Made by a program: the position numbers and the translations under genes. Shown here piece after piece: positions 51,329 through 60,167 of a stretch of DNA of 64,000 nucleotides (its first letter is position 1; the number at the start of each line of letters is the position of its first letter). The stretch is from positions 5,336,510-5,400,509 of the forward strand of contig NC_061063.1 of the NCBI RefSeq assembly GCF_021917145.1, given 5' to 3'. The stretch is from Hypomesus transpacificus. Taxonomy: Eukaryota; Chordata; Actinopteri; Osmeriformes; Osmeridae. A model generated the notes under the pieces. The model saw only the letters and a program-made list of their open reading frames with translations, did not search any database and was not told the DNA's origin.

Positions 51329-60167
<8,839 letters not shown>

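Follow-up and report, generated by a model that had tools for sequence, protein, structure and literature searches.

The window, by which we mean the whole 64,000-nucleotide stretch of Hypomesus transpacificus DNA that was analysed, contains genes for beta-catenin, a dynein light intermediate chain and mrpl3, and on its minus strand a gene which, judged from the protein it encodes, is cspg5, also known as neuroglycan C. A six-exon model of cspg5 in which all five introns have GT-AG borders is given below together with the site of a frame break (a slash marks an exon border here and throughout).

cspg5 exon 1, 60080..60167, minus strand, 88 nt: start codon; donor GTAAGA
cspg5 exon 2, 56518..57302, minus strand, 785 nt as assembled: canonical donor CAG/GTTAGA
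Six-G run in exon 2, 56534..56539, minus strand: site of the frame break
cspg5 exon 3, 54720..54908, minus strand: open in the shifted frame
cspg5 exon 4, 53886..54051, minus strand
cspg5 exon 5, 53065..53118, minus strand, 54 nt: in frame, KPVGRHTWEYKPRYSYYK
cspg5 exon 6, 51329..51526, minus strand: stop codon; end of the Neural_ProG_Cyt domain

The translation of exons 3-6 matched the Pfam family Neural_ProG_Cyt (PF06567) across the entire profile (positions 1-120 of 120; 130.2 bits, with the cut-off at 29.4 bits; E 6e-38), in agreement with the earlier identification of the gene as cspg5. CSPG5 (neuroglycan C, CALEB) is a transmembrane proteoglycan whose EGF module lies next to the membrane, and the parts encoded here come in the same order: ectodomain, EGF cysteines, transmembrane segment and a full-length Neural_ProG_Cyt domain. 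The start of exon 1 resembles a signal peptide, exon 2 as assembled carries the ectodomain and EGF cysteines 1-3, and exon 3 carries cysteines 5 and 6 plus the transmembrane segment (signal peptide, transmembrane segment and cysteine numbering were assigned by eye). No Pfam family was matched at E 0.01 by the upstream 292-residue piece or by the 261-residue exon 2 translation, and hence the ectodomain was assigned via its position, the EGF cysteines and the junction rather than via a family. The chondroitin sulphate attachment domain of the CSPG5 ectodomain is presumably a Pfam family; as this ectodomain is poorly conserved, the absence of a match in a distant fish carries little information. 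A scan of viral contigs with the 89-residue start of the downstream piece returned 79 pattern matches and no confirmed relatives.

The forward strand reads CCCCCC at 56534-56539, that is, six G's on the coding (minus) strand, and the coding-strand context at the end of exon 2 is GCGGGGGGTAGGAGCGTTCTGCAG/GTTAGA. Joined at the GT-AG borders, the coding sequence measures 1480 nt, one above a multiple of three; unlike known CSPG5, the gene as assembled carries a surplus base in exon 2. The first stop in the assembled frame is codon 293, two codons into exon 3, which opens GTG TAA (premature TAA at 54903-54905). Exons 3-6 are open through to the natural stop (201 aa) in one frame alone, the other two being interrupted, and this open frame differs from the assembled one. 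Across the six exons we found no second defect in the form of another stop, frame break or splice-dinucleotide fault. Shifting one base at the run gives C-TAVAGVGAF-C-R/C-NVQDYIWNKGLRC, with exon 2 ending in the phase that exon 3 requires. The original prediction was thus correct in placing six G's at this site and a stop two codons into exon 3, in describing the later exons as intact, and in holding that one base fewer would bring exon 2 into phase.

The interval that contains the break runs from cysteine 3 to the end of exon 2, and within it the six-G run is the sole homopolymer of at least five bases. The run appears to hold a single extra base, although the exact extra base is unprovable and a two-base loss in place of a one-base gain is formally conceivable. 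Two long open frames meeting out of phase at a conserved junction make, in our judgement, no chance pattern. Ribosomal or transcriptional slippage at the run was set aside as an explanation. Among the titles and abstract openings listed for cspg5 and neuroglycan C (zebrafish, salmon and isoforms), none concerned a frame break in a fish cspg5, which does not prove that no such report exists.

In the shifted frame nine residues separate the presumed EGF cysteines 3 and 4 (numbering by eye), and the mammalian counterpart of this stretch is C-YLVENIGAF-CRC. No mammalian cspg5 sequence was present among the Pfam and solved-structure search matches. The exon 2/3 junction falls between cysteines 4 and 5 and, in the shifted frame, splits the Arg codon of C-R-C. 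A splice junction placed there, near the transmembrane segment, is described as a hallmark of ErbB ligands and is reported for neuroglycan C (PMC1618406). The junction found here has the same position as in neuroglycan C and those ErbB ligands, and this match to a published mark gives independent support for the canonical cspg5 junction. The ErbB-ligand criterion of six cysteines in one open frame separates the two readings: the shifted frame holds all six, whereas cspg5 as assembled holds three of six (numbering by eye).

Profile searches lend slight support to an EGF module read across the break. The Pfam EGF score rose from 15.7 bits as assembled to 17.9 bits in the shifted frame, both below the 21.5-bit cut-off, while the matched part of the profile grew from 1-16 to 1-25 of 32. 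A version spliced through the cryptic acceptor described below scored 15.6 bits. Against solved structures the module gave four marginal matches up to E 5, the best being protein delta homolog 1 (E 0.14) and an EGF/TGF-alpha chimera (E 0.15).

From the premature stop it is 183 nt downstream to the exon 3/4 junction and 403 nt to the last junction. As a rule, a stop well upstream of a junction leads to nonsense-mediated decay, which would therefore be the expected fate of the transcript, and any surviving product of the gene as assembled would retain three of the six EGF cysteines (numbering by eye). For these reasons a useful secreted ectodomain, proposed in the original prediction as the main outcome of the frameshift, is unlikely. 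Nor would a soluble form of neuroglycan C in itself be new, since activity-dependent shedding of the ectodomain is already described (PMC2592529).

The gene might also be functional as assembled if alternative splicing absorbed the shift. We paired 41 GT donors (56301-56800) with 8 AG acceptors (54781-55010), and 79 of the 328 pairs kept the reading frame open as far as the natural stop. With the canonical donor, four of the eight acceptors did so (54895, 54877, 54847 and 54841); of the 41 donors, 11 did so when combined with the canonical acceptor, including 56621 (GAG/GTCGGA) and 56426 (TGT/GTGAGT). Two of the frame-restoring options were retained by judgement.

Cryptic acceptor TGTGCAG/GAT, exon start 54895, minus strand: removes 13 nt (54896..54908)
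Cryptic donor TGT/GTGAGT, 56426, minus strand: retains 92 nt of intron (56426..56517)

Both are open to the natural stop. The acceptor would give a protein of 488 aa that has lost EGF cysteines 4 and 5, and the donor one of 523 aa in which some 30 residues encoded by the intron precede a C-V-C across the junction. The downstream donor, GTGAGT, agrees well with the intron side of the splice donor consensus. The cryptic acceptor is a CAG with 8/16 pyrimidines upstream, close to the 9/16 at the acceptor of cspg5 exon 6, but it lies past the first AG, the canonical one, whose tract has 14/16 pyrimidines. The retained intron piece, for its part, contains CA-repeat sequence and would much lengthen the spacing between cysteines 3 and 4. 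With so many pairs restoring some frame, such matches arise easily by chance and neither cryptic site is strong evidence. If exon 2 is joined directly to exon 5, or to exon 6, a frame is likewise kept but the transmembrane part is lost. A different conserved junction that absorbs the shift had been named in advance as the case that would refute the frameshift; junctions that would restore the frame do exist on paper. We consider a gene rescued by splicing improbable.

That cspg5 is an old pseudogene would account for the presence of a frame break, but several independent disabling changes would then be expected and the six exons contain only one. Neutral decay was simulated across 1476 coding nt plus 20 splice bases at two assumed indel rates. 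At 1% divergence the chance of finding no disabling change was 0.199 or 0.084; at 2% it fell to 0.038 or 0.007, and at 3% to 0.011 or 0.001. A long unselected period would thus have left more defects, making an old pseudogene very unlikely indeed, and the values at 2% uphold the original ranking of an error or a recent allele ahead of it.

Because the rest of cspg5 looks healthy, new biology is less likely than a slip in sequencing or a mutation of recent date. For the neighbouring genes, exon pieces were picked by eye from open frames and chained with their ends placed by hand. Beta-catenin aligned without a frame break over 764/764 residues, nearly its whole length (5-780 of a 780-residue chain); the best match was chain 2z6g, which we take to be from zebrafish. 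The dynein light intermediate chain aligned over 332/337 residues (40-376 of 492) and mrpl3 over 223/224 (125-347 of 348), again with no break in frame. Together the three neighbours gave 1319/1325 residues, or about 4.0 kb of coding sequence, with zero breaks versus one in the 1.48 kb of cspg5, a comparison that detects breaks inside exons only since the exon ends were set by hand. A few small gaps remain in these alignments, some of them at hand-set ends. The window also holds a copine-like gene, recognized by eye, which lies outside this three-gene comparison. Within cspg5 itself, three C runs are in frame.

13-C run, 53933-53945, exon 4 of cspg5: in frame
7-C run, 53947-53953, exon 4 of cspg5: in frame
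6-C run, 51482-51487, exon 6 of cspg5: in frame

Longer homopolymer runs are usually more error-prone. The clean neighbours and the in-frame C runs point to good base quality, which raises the odds of a real mutation: a recent one-base slippage insertion in the G run that created a null allele, either segregating or newly fixed in one of the copies of a duplicated gene. Nonsense-mediated decay would remove the transcript, and the other allele or a paralogue would carry the function. A stop 183 nt before a junction fits a null allele, and the intact remainder of the gene is consistent with an allele younger than about 1-2% neutral divergence at the assumed rates. A single sequence, however, cannot separate a real insertion from an error, and we regard a recent mutation as a serious possibility that falls short of being probable. 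A real mutation would mean that a brain proteoglycan has a natural loss-of-function allele here. The stronger case, in which the extra base is both real and fixed, so that a membrane-anchored ErbB ligand has become a null gene or, via cryptic splicing, a membrane protein whose EGF module is altered, seems to us quite improbable.

The local evidence between an error and a young allele is mixed. On balance we favour, with modest confidence, an error of the consensus or assembly, with cspg5 otherwise reading correctly. The sequence on either side of the break is open and gene-like, the break sits in the only homopolymer of five or more near the junction, and a contig gap of exactly 100 N's lies at 50835-50934, which we count in favour of an error. 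Besides the good base quality, the small gain in EGF profile score and the lack of a Pfam family in the upstream part at E 0.01 count against this reading. False gene loss through assembly base errors is a named problem (PMC9355568), and the situation here is alike in showing one frame break in an otherwise intact gene. It differs in that the neighbouring exons checked look sound. Were the extra base an error, the additional G would be absent from the DNA of the animal, which would probably make a normal membrane-bound cspg5 protein with a complete EGF module. Such an error would matter for annotation alone, as automatic pipelines could truncate cspg5 or call its loss.

A further difference from known CSPG5 concerns optional cytoplasmic parts, comprising a possible alternative exon-4 donor and the 54-nt exon. 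Exon 4 contains an internal donor-like AAC/GTAAGG (last exon base 53973; segment 53886-53973), the use of which would remove 29 residues (VRKLCD...NIICQ) in frame. According to PMC2592529, the mouse isoform NGC-III arises by inclusion of an alternatively spliced exon 5; by analogy, a similar choice in the present gene could take the form of an alternative donor in exon 4. The 54-nt exon 5 sits between this optional part and the last exon and may itself be optional.

Elsewhere in the window, the last exon of the beta-catenin gene (13356-17291) encodes DALPDLGH twice, and this duplication overlies a tandem repeat at 13411-13468 with a 30-bp unit present in 1.9 copies. A single open frame at 20528-21247 (240 aa) contains the motif GDPIYLW twice; its sole match was to DUF1835 (E 1.5e-4, 22.3 bits versus a cut-off of 21.1), with no stretch passing alone. 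A short interspersed tail is also present, presumably of a type found in fish genomes. At 62426-63451 lies an open reverse transcriptase fragment of 341 aa (RVT_1, E 9.1e-33) that is non-LTR-like by eye. The open frame at 25107-26180 encodes a Tc1-like transposase of 358 aa (HTH_Tnp_Tc3_2, E 5.2e-23; DDE_3, E 3.2e-13) and may be a recently active copy.
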